Of a stretch of 63,132 bases of DNA, positions 33,049-62,911 are shown one piece after another. This DNA comes from Lachnospiraceae bacterium MD335 (GTDB lineage: Bacteria; Bacillota; Clostridia; Lachnospirales; Lachnospiraceae): positions 386,412 to 449,543 of the forward strand of contig KE159617.1 in NCBI GenBank assembly GCA_000403335.2, read 5' to 3'. The position numbers and the translations under genes were made by a program. A model generated the notes under the pieces. The model did no database searches and had not been told where the DNA came from. It saw only the letters and a list, made by a program, of their open reading frames with translations. Within the stretch, counting starts at the first letter, position 1. Every line of letters begins with the position of its first letter.

Positions 33049-33070
33049 TCAATAGAATTACAGTAAATTC

Positions 33071-33105
33071 AAGGGTTTCGGAGATTTCTCCGGAACCCTT
33101 TTTAT
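33071..33105 (+). terminator. Terminator carried with the replaced tuf end
   Basis: Stem AAGGGTTTCGGAGA / TCTCCGGAACCCTT with one mismatch, then TTTTT. A different hairpin occupies the same position after the second tuf end (62832). Confidence 0.85.
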
Positions 33106-33132
33106 GTTGTGAAACAATTCAAAAATGCTCTG

Positions 33133-33151
33133 TGGTTCTAATATGGTTCTA
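33133..33151 (+). repeat. Paired 8-bp direct repeats, possible integrase arm sites (left)
   Basis: TGGTTCTA-ATA-TGGTTCTA, period 11, starting 85 bases after the tuf stop codon. The period of one helical turn suits two recombinase N-terminal domains on the same DNA face. Function inferred. Confidence 0.6.
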
Positions 33152-33190
33152 AAAAATTTGTTCATCATTAAAATACATTCAAAATATCTT

Positions 33191-33520
33191 CTAATAGTTC
33201 TCTACTGGAATATTAAATGAATTCATCAAACTGTCTATCCATATGTTGTATTCATCACTGTCAATTTTTTCGCTTTCCAGTTCTTTATTCAATTCATTCC
33301 AACGAGATACAAGAGATGCAATCTGCGGACTTTCTATGTTAATAGATGCCACTAAGCGTCGGGTAGCAGTATTGACGGACGTGGAACATTCTACTGGAAT
33401 ACCTGCTCTTATCAATTCCATGATTACCTTTAAAATATCTGAATACGTGTTAATGCTCAATTCGTCGTTGGGTTTAATTGTATATCCAAAAAATAATTCT
33501 TCTTTAATACCGATAATGGA
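33191..33520 (-). pseudogene. C-terminal remnant of an XRE-type regulator
   Basis: About 110 residues (INTYSDILKVIMELI ... SDEYNIWIDSLMNSF) resemble the C-terminal helper domain of Clostridia XRE regulators. The HTH part is absent. The resemblance seems to start near IGIKEELFFGY, so a break lies close to 33515. Low confidence in family. Confidence 0.45.
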
Positions 33521-33795
33521 ACAGAATTTTTGTATTACTTGGCTGAAAATGAAATGGAGAAGATAAAGCAAGAGAATGAAGCTGTCCGGCAGGAAACAAC
33601 GGAACTTTCCGCAACCAATGATTTATTAAGGGAACAGGCAGACGGATTGATAGAGAACAGAGAAAAGCTGATGTCTGATAATAAAGCATTGGAACAGCGA
33701 CAGAAAAAGTTGCAGCAGGATATTGAGAAAATGGCTGATTCTAAAGTGACATTGGAACGTAACATACATGCCTATGATAAAGATGCAAAATGGCA
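33515..33795 (+). pseudogene. Coiled-coil remnant of a MobV-type relaxase
   Basis: A ~90-residue frame (LAENEMEKIKQENEAVRQET ... HAYDKDAKWQF) is a long coiled coil like the C-terminal part of plasmid recombination/mobilisation enzymes. It lacks the catalytic N-terminus and stops matching near 33795, where antisense ABC sequence begins. Confidence 0.5.
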
Positions 33796-33972
33796 GTTCG
33801 TGGGTTTCATCAGGCCCGCAATTAAGCGCAACAGTGTAGTTTTGCCAGCGCCATTCTGTCCGACAAGGCCGTACACATCACCTCTTGAAACTGAAAAATC
33901 CACATCATGCAATATCTCGGCTTGACCGAAACATTTATTCAAATGTTCTACGGCAAGAATTTGTGTGTCCAA
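33795..33972 (-). pseudogene. N-terminal fragment of an ABC transporter ATPase
   Basis: About 59 residues from a TTG start at 33972 after AAGGAG. LAVEHLNKCFGQAEILHDVDF leads to the Walker A motif GQNGAGKTTLLRLIAGL. The rest of the gene is missing; the join lies after KPTN. The piece cannot make a working ATPase. Confidence 0.8.
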
Positions 33973-34267
33973 ATTTACATCTCCTTTCCGAAGCCGACTA
34001 TCAGCTTCTGAAAAGGTAGTCGTATGACAGAACAAAATCCTTCGTAAATTTCAAAAAAATTTTTGTTCAAAACCGCCGTAAAATCAGAACATGGGATAAT
34101 ACCTACCCCTCAACGGTTTTTCCTTTCCCGTTAGGAGGTGCAGGATGGCTTTAGGATTAGTATGCAGAAATATCTCTCTCAAAAAATCAGCATAATCAGA
34201 CCTATTAAACGGCATAATAAGGTTATTCATTTGTGTGAATCAGCACGATACAATATATTTGAGGTGA

Positions 34268-34630
34268 ATGATTATGCCGATTGATGATTTAACCGCTTTA
34301 GGGCAAAAAATGCGGGAAGCCCGAAAGAAAAAAGACCTGACACAGCAGGAACTTTCTGATCTGAGCCATGTATCTGTAAAACAAATTGCCAACATCGAAA
34401 AAGGAAAGATGAATCCATCTTACTTGATTTTGAAAGCATTGGCAAAGGTGCTACCGATTTCTCTGGACTCTCTAATCAACCCAGATGTTTCTCCCGAAGA
34501 TGATGGAAGCAATCAGATGAAAATGCTGTATTGCAGCTGCCCGTCAGAAATGCGTGAAACCCTCTTGCACCACACACAGGAGACCGCAAAAGAGCTAACA
34601 GAACTATCCGGGAAATTTGAAACGAATTGA
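34268..34630 (+). CDS. XRE-family transcriptional regulator
   Basis: 120 residues. The HTH domain (residues 8-65: LGQKMREARKKKDLTQQELS, then VSVKQIANIEKGKMNPS) is typical XRE/Cro. The C-terminal ~55 residues are helical and not recognised. GAGGTG precedes the ATG. It points away from the relaxase block and may regulate transfer genes or a neighbouring promoter, a guess from position. Confidence 0.85.
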   Translation: MIMPIDDLTALGQKMREARKKKDLTQQELSDLSHVSVKQIANIEKGKMNPSYLILKALAKVLPISLDSLINPDVSPEDDGSNQMKMLYCSCPSEMRETLLHHTQETAKELTELSGKFETN

Positions 34631-34873
34631 GCCGGTGAGTGAATTTAACAAATTCCTCACCGGCTTTGTTCTTTTTCGAGAAAAAGAAGGTTATCCCGTT
34701 CCGGGATAACCGTGGCAAGCAATGCCCCAGGATAGCCATACGGCTCCTGGCGCTGCTTGTTGGGGATTCCCCAAGCCCCTTTTGAACACAGAATTTCATT
34801 CTGTGGCTGCGCGTTCCTGCGGAACGCTTTTCACCTGCCTGCGGCGGTGAGAAAATGCGAAAAAACAGGCGCG

Positions 34874-36292
34874 TCAGCGGTCCTGCCCCTGTTCCTTTTC
34901 CCGGTCATTCTGGCGTTCCTCCCCGTATCCCATCAGCCGGTCCACATTGTCTTTTGCGGTCAGCAGTTCCCGCATTTCCTCGCGGGAACGCCGGTACTCG
35001 GCATAGTCTTTTTTCTTTCCTTCCAACAATGTTGCGTACTCGGCCTGCAAGCTCTTGACGGTGGGCAGCTTCTTGATACCCAAATCGTCAAATGCCTGCT
35101 TTGCGGCCTTGTGGAGCAAAATATCCGCTTCATGTTCCGCTAAAAATTTCTTGGAATATCCCGCCTTGCGGTAGGCCGCATAGACCTCGCGGGTCTTGGC
35201 GTAATTGATGATATGGGTCCGCAGTACGGCAATCTCCGCCATGCGGTTTTCCGCCGCCTTGATCTGCGCCGACAGCTCATTATGACGGGCGGTAGCAGCA
35301 GCCGCTTTTTCTTCCAAGACTGCGTATTCCAGCAGGCCATGCTCGGTGAGATAGTTCATTGTCTGCGCCATCTGTTTGAGGTTAAATACCTTTGCCCAGC
35401 GCGCGTAGCCAGCGCCTTTTCCGGCCTGCAATTTTGCCTGAATATCCACCAGAAGATTGACCTTCGGAGTGGGAGTTGAAACCGCGTCTTTTCTGCGGGG
35501 CGTATGCTGCTTTTCTCCGGCAAGGACCGCCCGTATTTCATCTTCACTATATCCCTCGCCCAGTTTTTCATCCATGCGGGCAACATTCTTCCAGCCGGGG
35601 GCTTTGAGCCGGATTGCCTGTCCCCGGCGTGACACCTCACAACCCATTTCCGCAAGCAGCTTTAACAGAGCGTCAAAGTCAGCCGGTTTCTGTTCCAGCG
35701 CCTGGTCGATCATCATGCGGAGCTGTTCCCGGTGGGAGGGCTTTGCCTGATCCCCCAGCCATTTGTTGTAGCTTTTTCCATGCGGTTTTGGGTCCTCTAC
35801 AATGGAATAGCCATTCTCAACGCAGATGGTATCATTCAGCCGCCGGACCGCGCGGGTGCTGCCCCAGAAGTTTCGGAATTTCCGGTCACAGTTCACATTG
35901 ACTGCGTTCCAGATGATGTGGTTATGGATATGGGATTTGTCGATATGGGTGCAGACCACAAAGGCGTGATTTCCCTTGGTGAACCGCTTTGCAAACTCCA
36001 CGCCCAGCCGGTTGGCTTCTTCCGGGGTAATCTCGCCGGGGACAAAGGACTGCCGGACATGGTAGGCCAGCACATCGTCCGCGCCCCGTACCCGCCCGGT
36101 GGTGGAAATGTACTCCCGTTTTGCCAGCAGAAACTCGGCGTCGGCTACCCGGCTGTCACACGCAAAGCCGGTGACGAGCCTGCCGTTATCTGTCTTTTGC
36201 GGGTTGGATACATAGTCGATAATGTCACTGACCGCCTGACTTTCGGTGCGGCCTTTGCCAATGTGCAGCGGCATGATGCGTGTGGTTGCCAT
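34874..36292 (-). CDS. Relaxase/mobilisation nuclease (MobA/VirD2-like)
   Basis: 472 residues and apparently complete. It nicks and covalently binds the transfer origin to start DNA transfer. The HUH motif is clear: THIDKSHIHNHIIWNAV (near residues 110-125). The catalytic Tyr candidates lie in the N-terminal region (IIDYVSNPQK). The C-terminal half is coiled coil (ARHNELSAQIKAAENRMAEI). GGAGG is near the start on the minus strand. It belongs to the type found in Tn1549-like elements and remains intact while most transfer machinery nearby is deleted. Confidence 0.92.
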   Translation of the reverse strand: MATTRIMPLHIGKGRTESQAVSDIIDYVSNPQKTDNGRLVTGFACDSRVADAEFLLAKREYISTTGRVRGADDVLAYHVRQSFVPGEITPEEANRLGVEFAKRFTKGNHAFVVCTHIDKSHIHNHIIWNAVNVNCDRKFRNFWGSTRAVRRLNDTICVENGYSIVEDPKPHGKSYNKWLGDQAKPSHREQLRMMIDQALEQKPADFDALLKLLAEMGCEVSRRGQAIRLKAPGWKNVARMDEKLGEGYSEDEIRAVLAGEKQHTPRRKDAVSTPTPKVNLLVDIQAKLQAGKGAGYARWAKVFNLKQMAQTMNYLTEHGLLEYAVLEEKAAAATARHNELSAQIKAAENRMAEIAVLRTHIINYAKTREVYAAYRKAGYSKKFLAEHEADILLHKAAKQAFDDLGIKKLPTVKSLQAEYATLLEGKKKDYAEYRRSREEMRELLTAKDNVDRLMGYGEERQNDREKEQGQDR

Positions 36293-36348
36293 GATGGAAT
36301 CCTCCCTTCATAACAAAACGGCCTGCATATGCAGACCGCTTGTTTCTT

Positions 36349-36558
36349 TTATTCACCATTTTTGTATCGGATGACCGGAATCTGTCTGACCTTTTTTCCA
36401 ATGGTCCGGCGTTCTAACGCAAAAATCATATCGCTGGTGCGCTCAAAAAATCCGATGTCCTTTTTCCAGCTCATCCCGCATTTACAATGCTGTAAGCCGA
36501 TAAACTGCTGTTTCATTTTTCTGCCGCAGACGGGGCAGACTTTATTACTGGTTCCCAT
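36349..36558 (-). CDS. Small zinc-ribbon protein
   Basis: 69 residues with CPVCGRKM (residues 8-15) and HCKCGMSW (near 24-31), forming two zinc knuckles. No further family evident. It ends near the relaxase gene and starts 2 bases from the end of the DUF1016 gene, so the two are probably co-transcribed. Confidence 0.65.
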   Translation of the reverse strand: MGTSNKVCPVCGRKMKQQFIGLQHCKCGMSWKKDIGFFERTSDMIFALERRTIGKKVRQIPVIRYKNGE

Positions 36559-36560
36559 AT

Positions 36561-37580
36561 TTATTCTTCCATCTTATAAAAGCTGTCCAAGTTCAGCTCC
36601 CGTTTCAGTTCTTCTTCGGATGGCAGATAAGTAAAATACTTCGACGCGAATATCTGGCGGTTATCTTCCGGCAGCGTGTATTTTACAATGGAATCTCCTT
36701 TGTCCGCGCAAAGGACAATGCCAATCGGCGGCGTATCACCGTCATTCATCATCTCACGAGTGTAATAATTCACATACATCTGCATCTGGCCCAAATCCTG
36801 ATGGGTCAGCTTGCCCATTTTCAAATCTATGAGGACAAAGCATTTCAGAATATAATTATAAAAAACCAGGTCGATGAAAAAGTCCTGCCCATCCAGTGTA
36901 AACCGTTTTTGGCGCGCCACAAATGAAAAGCCGCGTCCAAGCTCTAAAAGGAAGTGCTGAAGATGGTCAATCAGGGCTTGCTCCAGTTCGCCCTCATACA
37001 CATGAGTGTCCGGCTGGATCTGCAAAAATTCCATTACATAAGGGTCCTTGATTATTTTTTCATATTCCGGTTTTGGCTCGGTAGACTGGATTTCTTTTGC
37101 TACAAGTGATTTATCCTGACTCGCTAAAATGCGTTGGTAGTACATGGTGTTGATCTGCCGTTCCAGTTGCCGGACACTCCACGCAGATTTTGCACATTCT
37201 TCTGCATAAAAAGTCCTTGCCTGTTCATCCTGGACACGCATTAAAAGCCGATAATGGGACCAGCTCAATTCGGCACACAGTGTGTGCCGAATCGGAAACA
37301 AGCAATAAAACTGGCGCATTGCCCGAAGATTACGGACGGTAAAACCCTTTCCAAACTCAACAGTCAGCTGTTCAGATAAATAATCCAGAAGTTTTTTTCC
37401 ATACTCGGCCCGGTCATTTTCTCCACACGCTTTATAGATTTGTTCTCCTATTTCCCAGTAGGTGATTACCATTGTGGAATTTACCGCCGCGCTTAAACGG
37501 TGTTGCGCGGAAACAATCGAATTGCGGATAGAATGATAGGTCTGTTCCGCATTTTGATTGATTTGCAAATCGTGATTCAA
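36561..37580 (-). CDS. DUF1016 / YhcG-family PD-(D/E)XK nuclease-like protein
   Basis: About 340 residues. The N-terminal DUF1016 helical domain (YWEIGEQIYK, FTVRNLRAMRQFY, LSWSHYRLLMRVQD) is followed by a nuclease-like C-terminal domain: GRGFSFVARQKRFTLDGQDFFIDLVFYN and FVLIDLKMGKLTHQDLGQMQMYVNYY, which hold the D..D-x-K core. YhcG-type proteins occur on mobile elements, and their role is uncertain. I choose the TTG at 37580, which has AAGGAGGG 8 bases upstream; longer in-frame starts lack a site. Confidence 0.9.
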   Translation of the reverse strand: MNHDLQINQNAEQTYHSIRNSIVSAQHRLSAAVNSTMVITYWEIGEQIYKACGENDRAEYGKKLLDYLSEQLTVEFGKGFTVRNLRAMRQFYCLFPIRHTLCAELSWSHYRLLMRVQDEQARTFYAEECAKSAWSVRQLERQINTMYYQRILASQDKSLVAKEIQSTEPKPEYEKIIKDPYVMEFLQIQPDTHVYEGELEQALIDHLQHFLLELGRGFSFVARQKRFTLDGQDFFIDLVFYNYILKCFVLIDLKMGKLTHQDLGQMQMYVNYYTREMMNDGDTPPIGIVLCADKGDSIVKYTLPEDNRQIFASKYFTYLPSEEELKRELNLDSFYKMEE

Positions 37581-37854
37581 TTTTGCTCCCTCCTTGCCTA
37601 TGGACATTATACCACGCAATCACAAAAAAACAAATGCCCCAAAAATCTTGCTGTCTTTTTCATAAAAGCTGCGCTTTCTCTCATCAGAGATTGTAAAAAA
37701 CTTGAAATAATGTGACCACGCCAATTTAACAGACGGTGTCTGGCATTTTCCATACATCCACTCCTCTATGAAAAGACCCGCCCGTTTGCGGGACTGTCTG
37801 CGCTATGACCTTTATCAGTATATCCTATTTCATGCCGAAAGTAAATCGCCAAAG

Positions 37855-38151
37855 CTATCTGGCGTTTCCTTTTTCCCACCTCTCCAAACGGGATTGGCAC
37901 AGTGCGGCAATTTCGTTTTTATCTTCCTCCGTCACATTCCTGCATCCCTTTGTCCGCTGGATTTCCAGATAGCTTTCATAATCGGAAAGCAGAAGGTCAA
38001 AAAGCTCCTTTGGGGTATGGCAGACCATGCCGCTGCAATAGCCGGGTAATTCCCCTGTCCCATGAAACTCCACCCGGATATACCCATACCGGCTTTTGCA
38101 GACTTCCATTTCTGTATCCAATGCCAGATAGTCCCCAAAAATGTCTATCAC
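37855..38151 (-). CDS. Small protein of unknown function from conjugative element
   Basis: 98 residues with no recognised domain. The N-terminus (residues 1-45) looks beta-rich and the C-terminus (LFDLLLSDYESYLEIQRTKG) helical. It shares the GC-rich composition of the neighbouring mobilisation genes. The ~230 bases to its right-hand neighbour's promoter region (37620-37854) hold only a GC-rich hairpin near 37775-37800. Confidence 0.55.
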   Translation of the reverse strand: MIDIFGDYLALDTEMEVCKSRYGYIRVEFHGTGELPGYCSGMVCHTPKELFDLLLSDYESYLEIQRTKGCRNVTEEDKNEIAALCQSRLERWEKGNAR

Positions 38152-38258
38152 CTGTTAAAATGACATCATAGCAGTCCACTCCTTTCGTAAAACCCTGTTC
38201 TGCCGCTATTATCCATGATTCCGGCACATCCGGCAAGTTTACCGTCAAAAAGAAAAAG

Positions 38259-38300
38259 CGGAGGAAGGCGCGGCGAAGAACGCCGTTCCTCCCTCCGCAG
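38259..38300. other. Inverted repeat downstream of mobC
   Basis: GGAGGAAGGCG pairs with CGCC-G-TTCCTCC, and outer GCGGAGG/CCTCCGC can extend it. It could be a terminator for the convergent frame or a remnant of a transfer origin. Not resolved. Confidence 0.4.
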
Positions 38301-38318
38301 ATGGAGCAAACTATCCGG

Positions 38319-38663
38319 TCAGGAGAGCTTGGAAAGCTGGGCCAGTATCTTCTGCACACCGTCCCAAAGCTGTTCCTGCCGCTGGGATATATCTTCCAAA
38401 TCAGCGTCATAAACCCGCCCGGTTTCATGCACTTTACGGGTCAGCTGGTTTAAGTTGTTGCTGGAATAGCGCATCAGGGACACCAGCTCCTTCAGTTCCG
38501 GCAAATCCAGCTTTACCACATACCCGTCCAGCGCCATTTTCCGCAGGTAGGCTTCCCGGTTGACGGTTCCAAGCTGGGACATTTTCTGCTCAATCAGAGC
38601 CAGCTCCTCCGGGGAAACCCGGAAATTCATCTGTACCTCCCGTTTCCGCTTTGCCGCGCTCAT
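38319..38663 (-). CDS. Relaxosome accessory protein MobC
   Basis: 114 residues. The N-terminal ribbon-helix-helix ([21 protein letters not shown]) and following MobC block ([32 protein letters not shown]) are typical. It helps the relaxase bind and open the transfer origin. It overlaps the upstream truncated gene by 4 bases. In related elements mobC directly precedes the relaxase gene; here about 2 kb with DUF1016 and two small genes separates them. Confidence 0.9.
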
Positions 38664-39771
38664 CGTTCCGGTTCCCGTTTCTTAGGGGCGGCGGGTTTGC
38701 GTTCCGGCGGCTCCTGTTTGAGTTTTTCCAGGACAGAGCCTTTCTCCGGGGCTTGAAGGACTTTCCGCGCCTGCTTCAAAAACAGGTCGGTCAGGCCGGG
38801 GTTGCGGCCCTCGGCCTGCAATTTTTCCAGCCTTGCCTCCAACGATTTTTTGGTGCGTTCCAGCTGCTTGACGGTAAAGCGTTCCCCGCCGCTGGCCTCC
38901 ACCTCGGCAATCCCGTCGGTAATCTCGTTGATCTGCTCCCGCAGCAGGCGCTCCTGCCGTTCCCGGCTGATGGGAATACGCTCAAACTGGCTGTGTCCGA
39001 TAATCACCGCGTCATAGTCCCCGGTGGCGATTCTGGCGCAGAATTTCTTGCGGTTGTGGCTTTCAAAGTCCTTTTTCGTGGTGACAAGGATATTTGCGGA
39101 GGGGTAGAGCCGTAAAAACTCGGAGGCCCACTGTTCGGTCAGGTGGTTCGGCACCACAAAGAGGGACTTCTGGCACAGGCCCAGCCGCTTGGATTCCATC
39201 GCGGCGGCTACCATCTCAAAGGTCTTGCCCGCGCCTAACAGCTCTGCCCGCTGTGCCAGATACCGGCGCACCGTTGAATCCTTGGAATCCATTGTGTAGC
39301 GGCTGGTGACAAAGGCCACGACGCCGCCCGGACGCACCTGGTCCAGCGATTTGGCGAAAAAGTAGTTGTGAATGTTGAAGTTCAGCTTGTTATAGGCCCG
39401 GTCATGGACGGAATACTGGCCAAACGGCACATTCCCTACGGCCAAATCATAAAAATCTCGCCGGTCAGTGGTTTGAAAGCCCGCGATAGTGATGTTTGCC
39501 TGGGGATAGAGCTGTTTTGCGATGCGTCCGGTGATGGAATCCAGTTCCACGCCGTACAGTTTGCTCCCCTGCATTTCCTCCGGCAGCATACCGAAGAAGT
39601 TGCCCACACCGCAGGAGGGTTCCAGGATGTTGCCGGTCTGGAATCCCATTTTCCCCACCGCCTCATAAATGGCCTGGATTACGGTGGGGCTGGTGTAATG
39701 GGCGTTTAAGGTGGTCCCCTTGGCAGCTTCATATTCCTCCGGGGACAGCGTGGCATAGAGTTCCGCAAACT
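38660..39771 (-). pseudogene. Collapsed helicase/N6-methylase of a Tn1549-like element
   Basis: A long frame (39658 to 38660) joins a methylase part to a helicase part. First comes [15 protein letters not shown] (SAM motif I) and [10 protein letters not shown] (the NPPF-type catalytic motif), then [11 protein letters not shown] runs straight into [17 protein letters not shown] (Walker A region) and [15 protein letters not shown]. In related giant proteins these two parts are hundreds of residues apart, so a large internal deletion is inferred. Upstream, the frame shifts at about 39700-39771, where EYEAAKGTT-type sequence continues in another frame. The product cannot be a full enzyme. Confidence 0.75.
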
Positions 39772-41193
39772 CCTTGGCTTGTGGTAATGGAAACGCAGCA
39801 AGTTACGGTCTTGCGTATAGGCAGTCCAAAAGGCGGCGTATTCTTCTGTGAGGGGCTGGCGGAAAGCCGGGTCACGCAGCTGCTCAGTGAGCCATGCGGA
39901 TTCTTCTAGAAACCCGTTGCCCTTGATTTCTGACAGACTGGGTAAATATCCGGCTTCTCTGGCTTCATCGCTCAAATCGTGATACAGGTTCCAGAGCTTG
40001 TTGGCAAGGAGGGAGCGTTCATAACCCTCCGCCTCGGCAAGCTCTACATTGGACGCAAATTGACCGGATTCCAACAGCTCGCCAATACGCTCCGCCGCGC
40101 CCTCCCAGGAAATAATCTGTGCGGATTTATCATAACGGGCGGATTTTCCATGAGAGAGATGGATTCCGTCCTCGCCGTACCAGACTGTGATACGGCCTGC
40201 ATCGGTGGTGAAGCCGTTGCCGCCATGATAGAGGGATTGCAGGGCGGCGGCAATCTCCGGGATCGGCTTCTGTTTTTCAAATGCAGCTGTCACGCGCTCC
40301 CGCAGACGGTCGGTATTGCCGCCCAGCCGCAGCACAAGGTCGATGTCCTTTTGGGCAAAAGAAAAAGCAGAGGATGCTTTCACATTCTCTGCTTCATCAA
40401 TATTCTGAATCTGTTCCGTTTCGGAAAGAAACAGGTTTAAGGTCAGCTGTTGATAAGTTCCGCCAGCAGAATCTCCTCCGCCTGGGCCTTGCAGCTGTTC
40501 ATCAGGCCCACCCACTGCATAGCGCATATACTTTTCGCTCTCAAACAGTTCCTTGATGTTCTGCTCAATGCCCTCGGTGATTTCCCGCAATCGCTCCCGG
40601 TTGGTGGGTTTCTCTGCCATTTCCTTGTTTCTCCTTTCCAAATCCATGATTTTTGTTAGGTGTTCTGCAATCCATGTTTTTTGTTCCTCGATGCCATCCT
40701 CCATCAGAAAGTCCAGAAGATACTCCACATAGTCCTTTTGGTGCAGCGCCTCCACAAAAAGGGGGTGCGGCTCCGCATCCGGGGTCAGGGGCGCAAGGCC
40801 GGTTTCCCAGCCCCACAGCAGATGGGCGTAGTCTGCCAGAGCGCGGAAACACCGCTGTTTTGATTCACGGAATTTCTGCGCTTCTGACTTTTGACGGACA
40901 TAGGTTTTCTTCGGGGGCGCTTGGCTGTCATAGAGCAGGCCAAAATCCTGGGCCAGTTTTTCCGCCGCCTCTTTGGGGGAGAGGTTATAAAGTCTGGCGG
41001 CAAAGTCGATCACATCACCGTCCGCCCCGCAGCCGAAACAGTGAAAGCGGCGGTCTAATTTCATGCTGGGCGTCCTGTCATCGTGGAAGGGACAGCAGGC
41101 CATACCGTTCCGCTTTACCTCGATTCCATAGTGTTCCGCCGCTCCTCTGGTGGTGATGGACTGCTTTACCGTTTCAAAGACATTCCCGCCCAT
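39706..41193 (-). pseudogene. CHC2 primase-like gene fused to helicase remnant
   Basis: 495 residues. Residues 1-95 are a CHC2 zinc-finger primase start (ACCPFHDDRTPSMKLDRRFHCFGCGADGDVIDF). Residues ~190-225 (NRERLREITEGIEQNIKELF) resemble the N-terminus of the giant helicase protein of Tn1549-like elements. From ~245 on (QQLTLNLFLSETEQIQNIDE) it resembles an internal part of that protein. The pieces are joined by apparent deletions. The last ~25 residues ([16 protein letters not shown]) are out-of-frame reading. Parts are recognised from family knowledge; exact breakpoints need alignment. Confidence 0.7.
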
Positions 41194-41195
41194 GC

Positions 41196-41765
41196 TTATT
41201 GACCGGAGGAGGATTTCAACGGCGGCTTATAGCCTGCGGCCCTGGCCCGTTCACTGGCGGCTTTGCGCCGCTTTTCGCTGTACGGCTCCCGGACCGATAC
41301 GCAGCGTTTGGGGACAATGAAGTTGTGGGCGTCCTTTTTGATGATCTGCTCCGGGTATTTTTCCGCCAGCTGCTCCAGCTTCTTCATCAGCTTGGGGTCA
41401 TGGGTATAGACCTCTGCCGCAGACTCGGCCTGGTTATAAAGGAGAAAGGTTTCCTGGGACGCGGCCAGGTTGAGGAAGGACAGCTGGAACCGGATGGAGC
41501 TGTCAAAGTAGTTGAGGAAATCGCACCAGCCCTCGAAGATGGCGGTCTTATCCTCGTTTTGGGACAGCTGGTAATTGATGTCCTGAAACTGAATGGTCTT
41601 GGTATAGTAGCAGTCTGCCACGCGGCAGATGCCGTCCGGCCACATCCGTTCATAGGGGATGCTGTCCTGCGCGGAAATCCCCTTCTGGTCAGTGCGGCTG
41701 GCGCGGGAAATGGCGGCTTCGATCTGCTTCCGATCCGCGCGGGAGAGCTTCTTTTTCACCGGCAT
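41196..41765 (-). pseudogene. VirB4 N-terminal fragment joined to another element gene
   Basis: About 189 residues from ATG 41765, which follows GGAGGGCGAAGGGCCA. Residues 1-100 (SIPYERMWPDGICRV, TIQFQDINYQLSQNEDKTAIFEGW) match the beginning of VirB4/TraE-type transfer ATPases. Near residue 105 it changes to a small unrelated protein (LLYNQAESAAEVYTHDPKLMKKLEQLAEKYP ending KPPLKSSSGQ), as if the whole interval between two transfer genes was lost. No Walker motifs remain, so transfer ATPase function is gone. Confidence 0.7.
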
Positions 41766-42174
41766 TGGCCCTTCGCCCTCCGGCGCTCTGCCGTTTGTCC
41801 GGTTTTTCTTTGCCGTAAACAATGTCATACACCTCCTTGTCGAGTTTGTCCTGCCGCTCCAATACGGCATAGAAGTTGTTGGTCTGGTAGGGGCGCTGCC
41901 GGGGCCGGAGAAAGGATACCCGGATCATGTTGCCGATGATCTTTTCCAGCGGCTGGCCGTTCTTCTCGTACATCGCCAGCAGGAAAAAGGGCAGCATGAC
42001 AAGCATCATGCACAGGGCGGCGGCGCTGTTCCCGGCTGGCCCCCGAAGCAGAAAGAAAAGCGGCACGCCAATCAGCGCCCCGCCGCCAAAGCAGACTAAC
42101 TGCCGTTTGGTGAGGTTGAAGGCCACCTTTGTCTTGACCTTCGTTAAGTCTTTGGGTACGGGTACATAAGCCAT
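41689..42174 (-). CDS. PrgI/TcpE-like conjugal transfer membrane protein
   Basis: 161 residues. Two membrane segments (residues 29-45 LVCFGGGALIGVPLFFLL and 49-68 ALCMMLVMLPFFLLAMYE) follow a short cytoplasmic start (MAYVPVPKDLTKVKTKVAFN). This is the PrgI-family protein that precedes VirB4 in Gram-positive type IV systems. It overlaps the VirB4 fragment by about 75 bases, as in intact elements. It is whole but has no machine left to join. Confidence 0.85.
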   Translation of the reverse strand: MAYVPVPKDLTKVKTKVAFNLTKRQLVCFGGGALIGVPLFFLLRGPAGNSAAALCMMLVMLPFFLLAMYEKNGQPLEKIIGNMIRVSFLRPRQRPYQTNNFYAVLERQDKLDKEVYDIVYGKEKPDKRQSAGGRRANAGEKEALPRGSEADRSRHFPRQPH

Positions 42175-42192
42175 TTTTGCACACTCCTTTCG

Positions 42193-42545
42193 TCAGTGGG
42201 CCTGGAAAATCGCCTTTGCCATGCTGCCGCTCTTAAAGAGGGTCAGGCAGAGCAGGACCGTATATCCCACACAGGACCAGATGGCGGCAATCGTATCCTC
42301 GTCGGTGGCGATGTTCTGCACCAGGACCGCGTAGATTGCCACGCATACCATGATAAGGAACGCCTGAAAGCCTAACGCCATCAGGGAGCGCAGGTAATTC
42401 TGCCCCATGCCGCCCCATTCCCTGCCCATCATAGCGGCCATCGGGACTGGCGCGACCGAGGTGACGAGATATATTTCCAGCATACGGCCATAAATGACGA
42501 TAAAAATGCAGATGGTCAGCGCCCACATGGTAAGGCCGATAAGGG
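42193..42545 (-). pseudogene. C-terminal remnant of a VirB6/TrbL-like membrane protein
   Basis: About 111 residues remain, with three hydrophobic segments (LTICIFIVIYGRMLEIYLV, ALGFQAFLIMVCVAIYAVLV, IWSCVGYTVLLCLTLF). The sequence resembles the end of the TrbL-type channel protein that precedes PrgI. The N-terminal part is missing; at about 42545 the sequence switches to the opposite-strand recombinase fragment. Confidence 0.7.
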
Positions 42546-42547
42546 CT

Positions 42548-42842
42548 TCTTGACGAAGAAAACTATTCCATGCTCTCCGTCAAATACCGCACGGAGCAGC
42601 AACAGCTTGATGAAACGATAAAGACCGTATCCGCAAGGCTTGAGGATGCCAAAGCGGAAACGGACGATGCAAAGCGGTGGGTAGACTTAATTCAGAAATA
42701 CAGTGCCATTGATGAGCTTACCGCCCCACTTTTGAATGAATTGATTGAGAAAATCGCAGTCCACCAGTGGAGGAAAGACGAGAATGGCAAAAAGGTATGG
42801 GACATTGAGATTTATTACCGTTTTGTCGGGAAGATTGATTAG
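42548..42842 (+). pseudogene. C-terminal fragment of a large serine recombinase (TnpX-like)
   Basis: About 97 residues from LDEENYSMLSVKY to YYRFVGKID match the C-terminal DUF4368-type end of large serine recombinases from Tn4451/Tn1549-like elements, including the coiled coil (TIKTVSARLEDAKAETDDAK). The catalytic Ser domain and zinc ribbon are absent. The remnant marks one end of the collapsed inner element. A hairpin GGGGAA/TTCCCC follows at 42856. Confidence 0.8.
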
Positions 42843-42908
42843 ATTCAGAAACTATGGGGAATGTGCCATTTGCGGCAGTTCCCCGAAGGATTATCCTTAA
42901 GTAAAGTA

Positions 42909-43242
42909 AAGCGGAGATTATCTGATACCGAACTTAATTCCTGATCCGGAGCCGGAGGGAGAGTTAAGGAAATTTGGGCTGATGAGGAAATCCTATTTGG
43001 AGAATCACAGGAGAGGTATTTATTCAGGATTACTGTTATCTGGCGAATTAAAGAAACATCTGTTGACGATACAGGAGCAGGCAGAGGAAAGATTTGATTT
43101 GCTTGCGGAACAGATGGAAAAACAGGAGGGAGTGACGGAACAGTTAAAGGCACAGGATCAGATGCTTTGGGTGCGGAGAATGAATAATATTCGGGCGAGG
43201 GCAGAGGAGATTGTGAGGGAAGAAATTATATACTGTCTGTAA
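42909..43242 (+). pseudogene. TnpV-like transposon protein, 5' end missing
   Basis: The frame GDYLIPNLIPDPEPEGELRKFG ... MEKQEGVTEQLKAQDQMLWVRRMNNIRARAEEIV matches TnpV of Tn4451-type elements. A stop lies just before GDYLIP, so the first codons (usually MELKYQRV-like) are lost. An internal ATG at 42982 could give an 86-residue product, but no ribosome binding site stands out. TnpV function is unknown. Confidence 0.75.
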
Positions 43243-43287
43243 AATTTCGGAGCAGAGAAATCTGCTCCATGTTTGTATATATTTTTG

Positions 43288-43316
43288 TTGATATCCGGCG
43301 TTTTTGCGCTTATAAT
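43288..43316 (+). promoter_or_regulatory. Sigma-A promoter of HTH-hsdRMS operon
   Basis: TTGATA, 17-base spacer, TATAAT. A transcript would start near 43323, about 30 bases before the HTH gene. Confidence 0.8.
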
Positions 43317-43353
43317 ATTAATGGAATATTTTGCTTTTTGGGGGAGCGAAAGT

Positions 43354-43539
43354 ATGGAATACATTACAATTAAAGAAGCTGCAGAAAAATGGAATCTTTC
43401 AGTAAGGCGAGTACAGACTATATGTAATGAGGGTATGATACAAGGCACTATAAAATTTGGTCATGCTTGGGCTATTCCGAAAGACGCCGAGAAACCAGCG
43501 GATAAGAGGATTAAGACTAAAAAATATATGAAGCGATAA
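43354..43539 (+). CDS. Small helix-turn-helix protein before the type I RM genes
   Basis: 61 residues: MEYITIKEAAEKWNLSVRRVQTICNEGMI is a MerR/excisionase-type winged HTH, with the usual AWAIPKDAEKP wing. GGGGAGCGAAAGT precedes the ATG. Proteins of this kind often open Clostridia restriction operons. It could regulate the promoter directly upstream. It is too short to act as an integrase and no integrase is nearby, so an excisionase role is less likely. Confidence 0.75.
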   Translation: MEYITIKEAAEKWNLSVRRVQTICNEGMIQGTIKFGHAWAIPKDAEKPADKRIKTKKYMKR

Positions 43540-43585
43540 TTATAAAATATACAGTTTGAATTAGAATATGAAAGGTGCAATTACT

Positions 43586-49183
<5,598 letters not shown>

Positions 49184-49253
49184 CTAAATTTAATTTAAAT
49201 AGTATAGATGTTTGAATGAATTATTAGTTTTAGTATGAAGGGATTTATACATT

Positions 49254-52200: not shown

Positions 52201-52964
52201 TAGGGTATGTCACAAAAGGAACATATGCTGTGATTTATGATATCATAACTGATCGGGTAGAGTTGTTTAATAAGGGAAATGATAACTTAACACAATTGGT
52301 TGAGTTTTTGGTTGATTACATAGACTTATCAACTAATCCTGATGATGTGATTAATATATTAGATGCACAGTTTTCAAAAATAAGCAAAGTTTCACAATTA
52401 GTTCATAAGTTGATGAGCATTGAATATGATGAAGATAATGCAAGTACTAAGTTGGCAAAGTTTATTGATAATTGCGAAGTGGGTGTTATTATAAAAATTA
52501 TTTCTGATGAATGGGGAAAAGACGATATACACAAAGAAAAGCTTGCAAGAGTGTTGTCAAAGTCAGAGAGATACTCTGTCCAAGTGCTGCTTCATCGTAT
52601 TAATGAAAATAAGGAAAGTATAAGCAAAAATGATTTGATTTCCTTATTGGAATTTTGTGAAAGTGATGTAACAGAAAACAATATTGAATCGCTTGTAAAT
52701 ATTATGAGATATTTGTTGGAAAATTATTTTGAAAAAGACATATGTACTCAAATTCTTGGGCAAATTAGTAATTTAACGCAAACAGTAATTGCTAAACAAC
52801 GAGAGAATATATGCATGATACTTATTGAAATTTTTCAAAAATCGTCTAGTGAAGAAAATAAAAGAAAGTGTGCTGTTATCATTAAAGACAAAAGATTTGG
52901 CAGGAAGATGAAAGGTAAATTAGATGAAAGTGAGTTAAAGGAATATAGGTCATATTTGTCGTAG
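49254..52964 (+). CDS. Large KAP-family P-loop NTPase
   Basis: 1236 residues. The KAP domain covers about residues 20-400: Walker A IGKWGLGKSSIVNM (near 45), Walker B KIIVVIDDLDRL (near 245), and two inserted membrane segments (FVVIAIVLSIIAFIIYCYL and ILIIPLVVWLGKLFM, residues ~140-205) as in PifA/KAP proteins. The remaining 800 residues are helical repeats without a named family. KAP NTPases are membrane-bound and some exclude phages. It starts 70 bases after hsdS on the same strand, and its AT-rich codon use matches hsdS. A defence role tied to the RM operon is plausible but inferred. Confidence 0.88.
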   Translation: MKKYFLKDKSLNNIDDDQFRYQDFANNLRKLIEYNEVPFNIAVIGKWGLGKSSIVNMALEPLRKKDRNKEFLICDINAWKYEKDEIGKAFLKELWEGISERNVLSFNFFHKDYSDTVKEMLKDENSTSRKNAGLHKFLKFVVIAIVLSIIAFIIYCYLSNGFYGVAFQGTQFWVSTFLRYCKNMGSILIIPLVVWLGKLFMDKLNEPAYKNYEISFPLQTQADYEMYLKNLLQEYYKINSEKKIIVVIDDLDRLSAEKIVEALDALKLFMEYDRFIFIVPFDDEILKNALRSKRINGISTFGNEYDGEMVLDKIFQYKMYLPQLIKYDMRNYAFEICKNDCSDFIREYCNDNYELFEEIAGKILIHSGVSTPRQVKKIINAFVENVMIARDREQAGKVAEGFATEKIGLQTIAKISVLQSDYNEFYDLLYKDANVINEILEVHRSNGEKESPKLLKNYFDDKNVLKRKYEPLVNYLIFTENLGHNNITPCLYMSQTKEGVLVGDQKQQDFMAAIESCNFVSVKQLISETPVLLSLFIEQLRYNESPMMGNIVLSAIDCYDAIPEDEREKLAFSITERIQEFSSSLSDFRYDLINEKNLIAVCHKVNDEGYNGLIECALNRNQQDGNYKNRVILINKISQIKYELSEEALSKFKIYTKEWLISDESGVQDVIDYATGEEINYFANVYGKEYVKKIAKHITDNDDFDDTMLKQFGNILSAFLENNSIMEVADALEPCYEYPIMHKILDASISEKKYKEIQNAKDIAIKIASVGVKNLKGIYGYKILSKLSYTVNVEEGKNMDAFLLDTVGEIEFSDMIEAFSNNNTLDLLPQTIGRLNEYAFEEEGYASDIRRLLKRYTKEQTEKFWNNLDNLCRYSSGREYKIISDLIVDLSKDNHYDKEAIGVIENDIISGVANYYNQDNYLLFAIQVVSAYKDKISQSALDKYSTVLLKVLATDTDNALNAYRVVNKLNSEDFWCKNIGTVLGYVTKGTYAVIYDIITDRVELFNKGNDNLTQLVEFLVDYIDLSTNPDDVINILDAQFSKISKVSQLVHKLMSIEYDEDNASTKLAKFIDNCEVGVIIKIISDEWGKDDIHKEKLARVLSKSERYSVQVLLHRINENKESISKNDLISLLEFCESDVTENNIESLVNIMRYLLENYFEKDICTQILGQISNLTQTVIAKQRENICMILIEIFQKSSSEENKRKCAVIIKDKRFGRKMKGKLDESELKEYRSYLS

Positions 52965-53114
52965 AATAGTTATATGTCTAGGAGATGCTTTCATGCTTTT
53001 AGTCAATAGCACGTAACTTGTTGCGAGGTATTTGACTGTTGTCAGAGGAAGTTGCAGGAGAAAAAGACAAAGGGAGCGCAATTAAAAATATTGGAGTAGA
53101 AAGCAGATGATGAT

Positions 53115-55849
53115 ATGAAAACAATAGACGAATACATAAAAACAGATGATAAGGCAATATGTGAGAATATAGACGATTTAGAGTATAAGACAAGAGATAA
53201 GGTTGCACAGAATATGCTGAGTTATTTTCGTAACCTTGTGGAACATATTGCAGTCAGGGTGTATGCGGAGCAACACGAAAATGCTTTTGTAGATTATGAT
53301 ACAATACCGAAGGCTGTTGAATTTTTAAAGACAAGCAATGAATTTTATTTTCTTAGGAAGTTCCATCAACTGTTGCAGGAATCGCGTTCTCATTATACGC
53401 CGGATAATGATGGGGCAGAACGGTTGCTTTAAAATATTATGAATACTTACTACAGATTAAAGATTTTGTTTATAGAAGATATCAGATGCAGATTCTTTCC
53501 AATATAGACAAGTTCCCGATTGATTTGGATGATACACTGCAGCAGTATTATGAAAAAATTGTAGAGAAATTGGATAAAGTTCGTTATCAGAAAGCTTATG
53601 AAGTATATAGTGAACGGTTTTATGTGCAAAAATCAAAACCATTTTTTGTGAATCATCATGTTTATTACGAAAATACCTTAATTCCAACAAATGATGAGTC
53701 CAGTAAATTTAATAAGTTGGTGGTATTCTCTGCCTTTAAGATTCCTGCTAATTATGCGATAAAGGTAGATTTGGATGATGATATTATCGAAATATCCGGA
53801 AAATTTATGCCAATTAAGATTGTGGCTGCATGGAGTGTATCTATAAGACCATGTGAGTTGAAAAATTTTGCAAGAATATTTGGATGTAATATAGAGGTGC
53901 GTAGCGATCTTTCGGAATATATTGGATTAATGAATTATATATCAAGAACAGGGCTTAATTTAGTTGAAATTCTGGAATTTTCAGATAGAAGGTATCAGGC
54001 ATTTAAAGAAAGAATTACGGAAAAGGCACAAAAAATTGTTTTATGTGATATTTTTGATAGAGCTAGAGATTGGATAAGAACAAATAGGTTAGGAAGTAAT
54101 AGTGTCCGCTATTTGTTATACGGTCTTAATAACAAAATAATAAAAGCGCAGTTGTCGAAGGAAGAAAATTATAGAATGAAGGGACTTTATTTAGATATTA
54201 AAGTTCTCCCATTTGAGGAAATGCCATTCAATTCAAGCCTTTGCAACCATAACCCATCAATATATGATTTGCTTTCATGCATAAAAACAGAAGGAAGAGA
54301 ACACGAATTACTAGCTCGCCGTATCAATATTAATGCAGATACATATGGGAAGTTATATACAAAAACAGATGAACTGGCAGGATTTGAGAATATTGATGAA
54401 TTGGTAAAGACTTATAATGATAGTCTATACAGAAAGCATCAAAATAGAAGACTGGAAATTATGGGTAAAAATCTTTTTGTGAAAGGCTATGAGGATGATA
54501 CAAAAGAAATAATTCAAAACCTGATTTCTTTAACAGAAGAAGGAGTGGTTGATTATAATGCCTCTGTGGAAGATTGGCTTATAGAGAATCCGAATGTGAT
54601 AGATAGTGACGAAAAGAGGGCTATCCTGCTTAGAATGTTTGAGAACTCAAGCCTTGCAATGATTTATGGGGCAGCAGGAACGGGCAAATCAACTTTGATA
54701 AAACATATTTCACAGTTTTGGAATGACGGTTCTAAGGTCTATATAGCAAATACCCATCCTGCAGTAGAGAACCTGCGAAGAAGGGTTAAAGACAATAGCG
54801 GTGAATATTTAACCATTAAGAAGTTTATTTATTCATATCCGGCTGACAAAACCGTGGATATATTATTTATAGACGAATGTAGTATGGTTAGCAATCGCGA
54901 TATGATAGAAGTTCTTAGAAAAAAGAATTTTAAATTGCTAGTTTTGGTGGGGGATATTTATCAGATAGAATCAATTCAGTTCGGAAATTGGTTTAATTTG
55001 GCAAGATATTTTGTTCCTGTAAAAGCACAATATGAATTAACAGAACTCTATAGGACAGAAAACAAGCAATTACAAGAACTGTGGAGTAGGGTGCGCAATT
55101 ATCAAGATAATATTACTGAATGGATGGGACATTGTGGATATACGACAAAGTTAGATGAGTCAATATTTGAGCGGACATCAGAAAGTGAAATTGTTCTGTG
55201 CCTTAATTATGATGGTTTATATGGAATCAATAATATTAACAGATTTTTGCAAAGTGATAATCCGAACAAAGCATTTGTGTTAGGAGTTTGGACATATAAA
55301 ATAGGTGATCCGATTTTATTTAGTGATTCCTCAAAATATGATCCTATACTATATAATAATCTTGGAGGAAAAATAGTAAATATTGAGGAAGAGGAGAACA
55401 GGGTGCTCTTTTCCATTGAGATTGACAAGGTGTTAAATAGCATCCATGTTTCAGGAACAGGACTTGAACTTATGCCAAAATTAAATCCGGGCAAGTCTGT
55501 TGTAAGATTTGCAGTAAAAAAGAAAAATGCCGGAGATGATGATAACGATGATGAAGATGCAGAAACTAATGTACCGTTCCAAATTGCTTATGCGGTATCC
55601 ATTCATAAAGCGCAAGGATTAGAGTATAATTCGGTCAAAATTGTTATTACGAAAGAAGTAGATGAAATGATTACACATAATATTTTCTATACGGCAATTA
55701 CGAGAGTAAGAGAAAATTTGAAGGTGTATTGGACGCCTGAGTCGCAGAAAAAAATTTGGGATAGTTTTATAAATGATGAAACATCATACGATGCAAAAAT
55801 TTTCTCGGCACGGACAGGATTAAAAATTATTAAGAAGCGGGTAGTTTAA
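53115..55849 (+). pseudogene. SF1 helicase / AAA ATPase with a frameshift near its 5' end
   Basis: Two frames form one protein: 53115-53432 (105 residues, MKTIDEYIKTDDK ... DNDGAERLL) and a frame continuing LKYYEYLLQIKDFVYRRYQMQILSNIDK through 55849. The shift is a single base near 53425-53432. The long part has a ~380-residue N-terminal region of unknown fold. It then has Walker A IYGAAGTGKSTLIKH, motif Ia ANTHPAVENLRRR, Walker B LFIDECSMVSN, QIES, and the UvrD-C box AYAVSIHKAQGLEYNSVKIV with FYTAITRVRENLKVYW. If the shift is a sequencing error the gene is intact; otherwise a 787-residue product from ATG 53486 would still hold the motor. Confidence 0.8.
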
Positions 55850-55869
55850 TCTATAATGAGGATAGGAAC

Positions 55870-56304
55870 ATGGAACAATATGCGCAAAATTTAATGTGTA
55901 CAGATGAAGAAAAAGTAATCACATACTGTAAAAATATTATTAAGGCAGTTGAAAAAACACATGATGTCGCTGCACAATCTAAATTAAAATCACGTAAGAT
56001 AAGGGATGCGCTTCAAACGAAGGACAAGCAGACAATGTGGAATGTGTTGCAGGAATACATACATAAGCATCCGGAATTGTTTACAATGGCTAATGACGTG
56101 CAGCTTAGACGGGTAGATGAAGATTTTTATAGAAATGTATCAGAAAAAGATGTGGCAAGGCAATTGGAAATTGTGATAGGGCTTATATATCTGAATGAAG
56201 CAAAGCATTGTGTGGCAAAAGAGACAATAAAGGCGTGTTTTAAGAAGTTATTAAAGCAATCAGGTGCATTTAGTGAGCATGAAATTGAAGTATTGCTATT
56301 GTAG
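55870..56304 (+). CDS. Unknown 144-residue helical protein
   Basis: No recognised domain. Predicted mostly helical and soluble, with charged stretches (SKLKSRKIRDALQTKDKQT, residues 40-57). It starts 20 bases after the helicase stop, with GAGGATAGGAAC before the ATG, so it is likely co-transcribed with it. The pairing suggests a partner of the helicase, but nothing in the sequence proves it. Confidence 0.7.
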   Translation: MEQYAQNLMCTDEEKVITYCKNIIKAVEKTHDVAAQSKLKSRKIRDALQTKDKQTMWNVLQEYIHKHPELFTMANDVQLRRVDEDFYRNVSEKDVARQLEIVIGLIYLNEAKHCVAKETIKACFKKLLKQSGAFSEHEIEVLLL

Positions 56305-60335: not shown

Positions 60336-60405
60336 GTTGATTTGAATTGGGTAAACGCCGTTTCCCCAATTCAACTGCACACATACCAATTATGGAGATG
60401 ATTAT

Positions 60406-62179: not shown

Positions 62180-62204
62180 AATTGTGCAGACGGTCTGCAC
62201 AATT
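62180..62204. repeat. 25-bp palindrome, left of DUF1016 remnant
   Basis: AATTGTGCAGAC, central G, GTCTGCACAATT. The inner 21 bases are the exact reverse complement of the palindrome at 62594-62614 (only the central base tells them apart). It lies 15 bases before the start codon of the remnant. Confidence 0.85.
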
Positions 62205-62219
62205 TGGAAGGAAGGTAGT

Positions 62220-62592
62220 ATGCTTATAACATCGAATGAGTATTTGCAAGCAGTACAAGAAATAAATGATTATGTGAATCAGGCTAAATATAGAGCGTCC
62301 GTTAGTGTGAATAGTGAAGTGCTGAAAACAAACTTGTTCATTGGAAGTGTGATTATTCGTAACTCCGAATGGGGCGCTGGACGATTTGGTTAAATCCCTA
62401 GACGATAATCCATCTGTTGGATTAATATTATGTAGAGATGAGAATAGAACCATTGCAGAATATGCGTTAAGAGATATGTCGAAACCTATTGGTGTAAGCG
62501 AATATCATTTGTGTACAGATCTTCCGCTAGACTTGAAAAGTGCTTTACCAGATCCGGAGGAGATTAGAAGTAGGATTGACATGAAAAAATAA
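62220..62592 (+). pseudogene. Internally deleted DUF1016 (YhcG-like) gene
   Basis: The N-terminus (MLITSNEYLQAVQEINDYVN ... EWGAGRFG, stop at 62393) and the C-terminus (LDDLVKSLDDNPSVGLILCRDENRTIAEYALRD ... DPEEIRSRI, another frame, to 62592) are the two ends of one DUF1016 protein. About 250 residues between them, including the nuclease core, are gone, and the joint at about 62380 is out of frame. It is not the same gene as the intact one at 36561-37580. Both ends abut a palindrome. Confidence 0.85.
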
Positions 62593-62593
62593 A

Positions 62594-62614
62594 TTGTGCA
62601 GACCGTCTGCACAA
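62594..62614. repeat. 21-bp palindrome, right of DUF1016 remnant
   Basis: TTGTGCAGAC, central C, GTCTGCACAA, starting 1 base after the stop codon of the remnant. Pair of the palindrome at 62180. Confidence 0.85.
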
Positions 62615-62634
62615 ATGAATTAGAAAGAGTTTCG

Positions 62635-62653
62635 TGATAACACCATGATAACA
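62635..62653 (+). repeat. Paired 8-bp direct repeats, possible integrase arm sites (right end of island)
   Basis: TGATAACA-CCA-TGATAACA, period 11, about 100 bases before the second tuf end. Same geometry as at 33133 and 62893 but a third sequence. The stretch to 62750 also holds a dyad AAATCACT/AGTGATTT (62717-62740). Confidence 0.55.
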
Positions 62654-62753
62654 AAAATTTCAAAAACCTCAGATACGAGGTGCACATCAAAGAAAAACCA
62701 CCGAAAAAGCCCTGAAAATCACTTGAGAACACAGTGATTTCTCTCACAGAAAA

Positions 62754-62808
62754 CCGTGAGGGTGGTAGAACTGTTGGGTCTGGACGTGTGGCTACAATTA
62801 TTGAGTAA
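62754..62808 (+). pseudogene. Second copy of the tuf 3' end (right attachment region)
   Basis: Encodes [17 protein letters not shown] and stop, the same last 17 residues as tuf, with synonymous differences (for example CGT where tuf has AGG). It has no upstream part of the gene. This marks the right end of the ~29.8 kb island. Whether it is the original host tuf end or that of a second integrated element is discussed in the findings. Confidence 0.85.
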
Positions 62809-62831
62809 TCAGTAAAAAGCTAGATTTTATG

Positions 62832-62862
62832 GGGCTTTCCGAGAAATCGGGAAGCCCTTTTT
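62832..62862 (+). terminator. Terminator after the second tuf end
   Basis: Stem GGGCTTTCCGA / TCGGGAAGCCC with loop GAAA and one mismatch, then TTTTT. Confidence 0.85.
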
Positions 62863-62892
62863 GAAACTTTGCAACAGTGAAAATGTATAAAG

Positions 62893-62911
62893 CGGTGCCA
62901 AAACGGTGCCA
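62893..62911 (+). repeat. Paired 8-bp direct repeats, possible integrase arm sites (second element)
   Basis: CGGTGCCA-AAA-CGGTGCCA, period 11, starting exactly 85 bases after the stop codon of the second tuf end, as at 33133. An inverted copy TGGCACCA lies at 62935-62942. Confidence 0.6.

Follow-up and report, generated by a model that had tools for sequence, protein, structure and literature searches.

Period-11 repeat pairs behind tuf in Lachnospiraceae bacterium MD335 and its relatives point to stacked mobilizable elements with type-specific integrase arm sites

The 3' end of tuf, the gene encoding EF-Tu, was analyzed in a window of 63,132 nucleotides belonging to Lachnospiraceae bacterium MD335, which corresponds to positions 386412-449543 of contig C1 in a draft genome (G000) of 4.96 Mb in 19 contigs. 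The window contains two tuf ends, the stop codons of which finish at 33048 and 62808, and a hairpin followed by a T run was seen by eye downstream of both. Each hairpin is followed by two copies of an 8-bp sequence separated by three bases: the copies of TGGTTCTA begin at 33133 and 33144 and those of CGGTGCCA at 62893 and 62904, so that the first copy lies in both cases 85 nt past the stop. Neither sequence occurs again on the plus strand of the window, and a lone copy of TGGTTCTA is present on the minus strand at 62445. This shared spacing of two different period-11 pairs had been pointed out in an earlier inspection of the same DNA (the sequence-only reading), and we found it to be exact, with both hairpins in place. 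An additional pair of the same design, consisting of TGATAACA at 62635 and 62646, lies directly upstream of the second tuf end and had not been recorded in that inspection.

The arrangement is that expected of gene restoration: tuf is intact at 31861-33048, and its tail is found again at 62755-62808 and, in a decayed form, at C1:469525. The crossover probably falls within the core CGTGAGGG, and the last 46 nt of tuf, which follow this core, would have been supplied by the inserted element. A block extending from the interior of tuf through the left end of the element (32842-33540) is 91% identical to locus L052. The original tuf end had been predicted to lie beyond the window, and a third core was indeed found at G000:C1:469525 (CGTGAGGGTGGACGTACTGTAGGTTTTGG, then other sequence), 19,982 nt past the window end. 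Exact-pattern and similarity searches of this genome gave only two tuf ends, and the third was detected by scanning the continuation of the window, about 2.2 kb of which is masked in the data. In this decayed end, 28 of the first 29 nt are those of a tuf end (by eye against L024); a right end of TGGCTCTA type (274 columns at 85% identity to L120) lies before it, and a gene encoding a GH3 glycosidase is located downstream.

Two elements, 1 and 2, are delimited in this way. The proposal that a second element starts after 62808 was borne out, since positions 62754-62988 are 97% identical to the left end of the CGGTGCCA-type element L158. This left end is broken by an IS66-type insertion, the IS66 transposase being located at L007:1968-3605, and the stretch 62989-63132 recurs on contig C12 at 90% identity. 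In element 1, positions 32701-33538 are 90% identical to L106 8633-9470, and positions 33538-33798 match L106 14496-14756 at 94%. Element 1 joins L106 9470 to 14496 at position 33538, and 5.0 kb including the integrase (L106 10001-11050) are gone. In L099, an intact relative, the stretch matching the lost 5.0 kb carries the start of the HTH_3 regulator (Pfam), the integrase, an open frame that resembles by eye the AAA_25 ATPase of L158, and the greater part of a frame that resembles by eye the Mob_Pre relaxase of L158 and L121. The right part of element 1 resembles the TGATAACA element of Roseburia sp. 1XD42-69, the identity amounting to 93.7% at 42913-47704, 84% at 48482-49233, and 95.7% at 49697-56304; a match to the same element is found again at 62633-62810 (86%).

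No integrase was matched in either element, and both have kept their tuf ends and arm pairs; for 11 of the 17 integrase matches in this genome, comparison gave at most 48% identity to the tuf-type integrases. The ends of the two elements are unlike: TGGTTCTA and TGATAACA in element 1, CGGTGCCA at the start and TGGCTCTA at the end of element 2. Since the integrase is lost and the arms differ, the best reading of each is that two elements in tandem have fused, and together they look like four tandem integrative and mobilizable elements (IMEs) fused into two composites. They are comparable to cis-mobilizable elements (CIMEs), in that the att sites are kept and the integrase is lost, the right att site of element 2 being decayed. 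The features of the window are listed in Table 1.

Table 1. Features at the tuf locus of Lachnospiraceae bacterium MD335 (window coordinates)
Feature	Position	Strand	Evidence or remark
tuf (EF-Tu) coding sequence	31861-33048	+	Open reading frame
attL core CGTGAGGG	32995-33002	+	In the G005 array, all four tuf ends have it and differ past it
Terminator-like hairpin and T run after tuf	33072-33103	+	By eye, approximate
Left arm pair TGGTTCTA-N3-TGGTTCTA, element 1, stop +85	33133-33151	+	Integrase-bearing TGGTTCTA elements have it at both ends
HTH_3 regulator remnant (C-terminal part)	33191-33538	-	By eye against L099:9123-9623 (Pfam HTH_3), next to the left end of that intact TGGTTCTA element
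Deletion joint and C-terminal Mob_Pre-type relaxase remnant	33538-33798	+	By eye against L099:12466-13845
Conjugative-element debris	33799-42912	.	Pfam
MobA/VirD2-like relaxase	34874-36292		Pfam; within conjugative debris
YhcG nuclease	36561-37619		Pfam; within conjugative debris
CHC2 zinc finger	39706-41193		Pfam; within conjugative debris
PrgI	41689-42174		Pfam; within conjugative debris
TGATAACA-type element segment	42913-56304	+	Match to Roseburia sp. 1XD42-69 (L130/L124)
Type I restriction-modification cargo	43568-49183		PADLOC, Pfam
KAP NTPase cargo	49254-52964		PADLOC, Pfam
PDC-S53-like pair cargo	53115-55849		PADLOC, Pfam
Right arm pair TGATAACA-N3-TGATAACA, element 1	62635-62653	+	Type unlike the left arm of element 1
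Second tuf end (attI): core and 46-nt tail, 21 encoded residues	62755-62808	+	Sequence
Terminator-like hairpin and T run, second tuf end	62832-62862	+	By eye, approximate; block also in L021 and L034
Left arm pair CGGTGCCA-N3-CGGTGCCA, element 2, stop +85	62893-62911	+	62754-62988 97% identical to L158
Start of IS66-type insertion, breaking the left end of element 2	62989-63132	+	Homology to L158 ends at 62988

The region behind tuf was then compared among relatives. In the genus, 38 genomes were searched, and tuf was matched in 24 of them with an E value of 1e-100 or lower; loci that were cut short or had no readable tuf end were dropped (6 of 25 in the genus, 12 of 67 in the family), which left 19 tuf ends of the genus, including that of the present genome, and 55 loci from other genera, the latter being the closest tuf matches and not a random draw. 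Exact pairs of 8-mers with a period of 11 within 170 nt of tuf were found at 9 of the 19 genus ends, as against 0.09 expected from dinucleotide shuffles, and pairs starting at +80 to +90 at 7 of the 19, as against 0.01, so that chance repeats were rejected as an explanation. Among the 55 loci from other genera of the family, 8 have an exact pair and 4 have one starting at +80 to +90, where 0.21 and 0.03 were expected. Seven of the nine exact genus pairs start at +82 to +85 and two at +139, while at five further genus ends a pair with one mismatch begins at +81 to +87. Only one copy of TGATAACA follows tuf in L026, and L036 is interrupted by Ns. No pair was detected after tuf in L037, even at a match of 7/8, nor in L038 and L039, where ordinary-looking frames follow tuf and no second tuf end is present in 13 and 32 kb. 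The layout recurs in relatives with at least six different 8-mers, and intact elements bear the respective 8-mer at their left and right ends alike.

The clearest case is that of genome G005, in which tuf and three further tuf ends bound three complete elements, and a fourth element begins there. The sequence at both ends is TGGCTAC (TGGCTACA type) in element I, TGGTTCT (TGGTTCTA type) in element II, and GGTGCC in element III, the left pairs lying at +85 and the right pairs 121-122 nt before the core; in the fourth element, only the start of which is present, one copy of TGGCTCTA was found. Each of the four carries an integrase of its own. Matched arms together with an integrase were identified in 19 of the 28 bounded tuf-to-tuf intervals, two others being elements 1 and 2 and the remaining seven L143, L156, L048, L163, L141, L142, and L152, and matched TGATAACA elements are also present in G439 and G440 in the array maps of the 12 genomes behind the named loci. 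Of 79 left arms, 39 begin at +85 and 59 within +81 to +86, and the right arm lies 121 or 122 nt from the core CGTGAGGG in 31 of the 33 typed right ends. Both deviating distances, 120 and 97, come from the present genome's own elements, as would suit decayed copies. The backbone of the elements consists of an HTH regulator, the integrase, an AAA_25 helicase-like protein, and a Mob_Pre (MobV) relaxase; Pfam identifies this relaxase in two elements, L158 and L121, and L099 has an open frame resembling it. No transfer genes were apparent by eye in the open reading frame lists of these three elements, which measure 6-12 kb. The elements can therefore be classed as IMEs, with matched ends and an integrase in 19 of the 28 intervals, a relaxase, and no complete transfer apparatus in the three elements. 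They resemble Mob_Pre IMEs in combining integrase and relaxase without apparent transfer genes, whereas the present genome's own copies are decayed and fused and contain the debris of a separate conjugative element.

A scan of contigs with five integrases gave 243 pattern matches and 176 relatives, the best 80 of which were kept (78 loci). It was possible to assign an arm type to 65 of 82 integrases, a set that includes four identified before the scan; for several of the 17 untyped ones the sequence stops short of the left end, and others fall outside the typing rule. On the tree of the 65 integrases, the eight arm types require seven changes, the minimum possible, whereas shuffled types require 40.6 changes and none of 200 shuffles gave as few as seven, a contrast that is inflated because some of the 65 integrases are near-copies of one another. 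Between types, identity is lowest in the arm domain (47%, as against 68% in the core-binding and catalytic domains), and the identity within types is 90-94% (L146, which has a frame problem and a long branch, was kept in the tree and excluded from the identity table). Arm-DNA-bind_4 (PF14657), SAM-like (PF14659), and catalytic (PF00589) domains were all above the Pfam cut-off in five of five integrases, a domain content that fits the IntTn916 subgroup. The best match in the PDB was XerA (5hxy), followed by an "Int protein" (6emy/6emz), and these matches cover only the core-binding and catalytic parts. Since the 8-mer tracks the integrase clade and is present at both ends of the element, the pairs can be read as integrase arm sites.

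The layout, the matched ends, the co-segregation with integrase clade, the tandem arrays, and the deletion joint of element 1 are all visible in the sequences compared, and taken as a whole they make it very probable that the tuf 3' end is an attB hotspot at which IMEs stack, the pairs being arm sites private to each element type. IMEs with Tn916-type tyrosine integrases would insert at this site in Lachnospiraceae, each of them bringing along a version of the final 46 nt of tuf and a terminator, so that insertion would rebuild tuf while the previous tuf end came to lie beyond the element. There it would still be a target, which is how the elements would stack. The N-terminal domain of the integrase would bind the 8-bp pairs, one pair at each end at a fixed distance, and the period of 11 would set two arm domains on the same helix face; the co-segregation with clade, the faster divergence of the arm domain, and the one integrase of a second hotspot described below point to such binding indirectly. 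With a core common to all the elements and an arm sequence private to each integrase type, distinct arms might prevent cross-excision and let sibling elements coexist. In the window and the sequence directly past it, TGGTTCTA, TGATAACA, CGGTGCCA, and TGGCTCTA elements would have collapsed by deletion into two composites without integrases. The suggestion that the two pairs mark the left ends of related tandem elements with diverged arm sites accordingly gains from the same-layout, clade-linked pairs at both ends of integrase-bearing relatives, although each of the elements here, having unlike ends, is better read as a fusion than as a single element.

Apart from the near-copies mentioned above, several observations weigh against this reading. 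The left spacing is not strictly 85 nt: there are clusters at 95-97, 106-110, and 138-142 and a few cases at 61 and 129 (the two left ends at +61 were counted as TGGTTCTA, and TGGTACTA was not in that motif list). L143 and L156, two of the 28 intervals, have an integrase yet unlike ends, one unlike-ended element is found in each of the genomes G431 and G442, and L141, L142, and L152 do not fit the arm scheme. No Pfam match was obtained with the regulator and relaxase remnants of element 1 themselves. The arm-domain, core-binding, and catalytic trees each give seven changes, so that these data alone cannot assign arm specificity to the N-terminal domain. Lastly, a TGATAACA pair follows tuf in G015 (L050) and is succeeded by ordinary-looking frames, no second tuf end or integrase motif being present in 60 kb.

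The types of neighbouring elements were also compared. Among 44 internal tuf ends, 23 were typed on both sides (including the junction in the window, and several from the same contigs), and none of these 23 junctions has neighbours of the same type, whereas 4.87 were expected and a proportion of 0.002 of permutations was as low. The typed junctions in the array maps of the 12 genomes are likewise unlike. A second hotspot in the present genome gives a similar picture: the core GAGTTCGA, which resembles a tRNA T loop, occurs seven times in five stretches (L229, L230, and L231 on C15, L232 on C2, and L233 on C12) around other integrases, and no tRNA was called at these cores by ARAGORN. The arm pairs found here are TGGCAACA, TGATAACA, TGGGTACA, TGATACC, and TGAGATT. 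A period-11 pair lies at +71 or +72 at all seven cores, and a readable pair at -119 to -122 at six, of unlike type in all six, so that none of the six readable junctions is of the same type; the seventh core is partly masked, and its only visible right copy is also unlike. In the one integrase with TGATAACA arms at this hotspot, the arm domain is nearest to those of the TGATAACA-type tuf integrases (58%, the next being 51%), and in this single case nothing comparable is seen in the core-binding domain. In L229 at 4163-4460 (C15), a small reverse frame is surrounded by two clusters of TGACGGC repeats, which lie about 260 nt apart; they were considered as a same-type junction and rejected, since there is no GAGTTCGA core.

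We tentatively suggest that sibling integrases may have diversified a private arm "address", so that they stack on one attB while each recognizes its own ends only; composites with unlike arms could then be excised by neither integrase alone, and the rule might also hold at GAGTTCGA, where the set of 8-mers overlaps with that at tuf and the right arm again lies at about 121. The exclusion part is proposed with reserve, since same-type pairs could also be lost when like neighbours recombine or are collapsed in assembly. It is quite possible that same-type neighbours are missing solely through homologous recombination or short-read assembly, and not through cross-excision at shared arms: most of the genomes are drafts, in which the near-identical integrase regions of same-type neighbours would recombine or break contigs, and probable collapses of unlike neighbours are visible. 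On the other side, the typed junctions are unlike even in long records, namely the 6.3-Mb contig of G431 and the complete chromosome of G433, two cases only; and the three elements with listed frames differ in cargo, a weak argument as they are of three different types.

Far less support was obtained for the idea that no fusion occurred and element 1 was one element from the start, with an integrase that used a different arm sequence at each end. Unlike ends exist in elements 1 and 2, in L143 and L156, and in the elements of G431 and G442, but matched ends with an integrase are the pattern in 19 of the 28 intervals, the left part of element 1 can be aligned to TGGTTCTA elements, minus the integrase, and further to the right two stretches (42913-47704 and 49697-56304) match the Roseburia sp. 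1XD42-69 element of TGATAACA type at 94-96%. One element bearing two arm types is therefore improbable and was rejected on the alignments of element 1 to two element types. Fusion would also explain the unlike ends of L143, L156, and the elements of G431 and G442, the joint having been traced only in element 1.

That the pairs are host-conserved regulatory or terminator-associated sites of tuf, independent of mobile elements, is highly improbable: they do sit just past the tuf terminator at a near-constant distance, and G015 has a pair without a detected island, but the 8-mer is repeated kilobases away at the other end of the element and tracks the integrase clade, tandem copies in one genome bear different 8-mers, and L038 and L039, which have no second tuf end, have no pair. 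A pair in an island-free genome had been regarded in the sequence-only reading as fatal to the mobile-element interpretation; G015 provides such a pair, but that view proves too strict, since the tuf tail and the arm pair are element sequence able to remain behind. The pair of G015 is apparently a left-end relic, and G018, where a gap of 100 Ns follows the pair, may be another case of a pair outliving its island.

Arm repeats are known in Tn916 itself, where they are called DR2. As regards the systems described so far, PMC7563491 and PMC5704250 report that integrative and conjugative elements (ICEs), IMEs, and CIMEs accrete in tandem in Streptococcus at the 3' ends of fda, rpsI, rpmG, and rplL. 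The stacking in a gene 3' end, the displaced gene ends serving as internal att sites, and the att-keeping CIMEs described there are similar to what we observed, and the target differs, being tuf here. Two IMEs of the same superfamily are reported never to occur in tandem in S. salivarius (PMC7563491, PMC5704250), whereas sibling IMEs with related integrases are stacked here, with arm sites that differ in the 23 typed junctions. In Tn916-type tyrosine integrases, arm sites are recognized by the N-terminal domain (PMC8138268). The tuf integrases share with the IntTn916 subgroup as presented there the arm-binding, core-binding, and catalytic domains and the mostly gram-positive hosts, and differ in having one common core with 8-bp arm repeats that vary by clade. 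The word "tuf" is absent from the main text of these three papers, and tuf or EF-Tu is not described as a hotspot for stacked elements in any title or abstract among those listed in searches of the open-licence literature.

Tandem accretion and CIMEs are already known; what appears to be a new variation is that sibling integrases sharing one core have so many arm addresses, all different from one another. The analysis singles out tuf, which is essential and highly expressed, as a place where mobile elements stack in Lachnospiraceae. The distances of the arm pairs, which hardly vary (+85, -121/-122), offer an easy means of locating element ends in draft genomes. Nature also supplies a set of integrases that have their core in common and use at least six arm addresses, and with it the recognition code of Tn916-type arm domains becomes directly testable, as does the coexistence of related elements at one att site. 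The fact that each kind of element has its own address at both ends suggests how close relatives might share a landing site without removing one another.

Some other tuf elements show distinct arrangements. In L141 and L142, only about 130 nt separate the integrase from the right tuf end, and the left pair is TTGTGACG-like, which amounts to a different layout. A 12-kb tuf element in L048 (G014, 150-12017) has a single TGATAACA at both ends and restriction-like cargo, and its integrase is only a 77-residue fragment. The broken integrase of L052 (G003) resembles by eye the TGGTTCTA type in its first part and the CGGTGCCA type in its last part, as if adjacent integrase genes had recombined. Lastly, a miniature element of 1.07 kb, with TGGTTCTA arms at both ends and no integrase, lies between two tuf ends in L163 (6475-7601).

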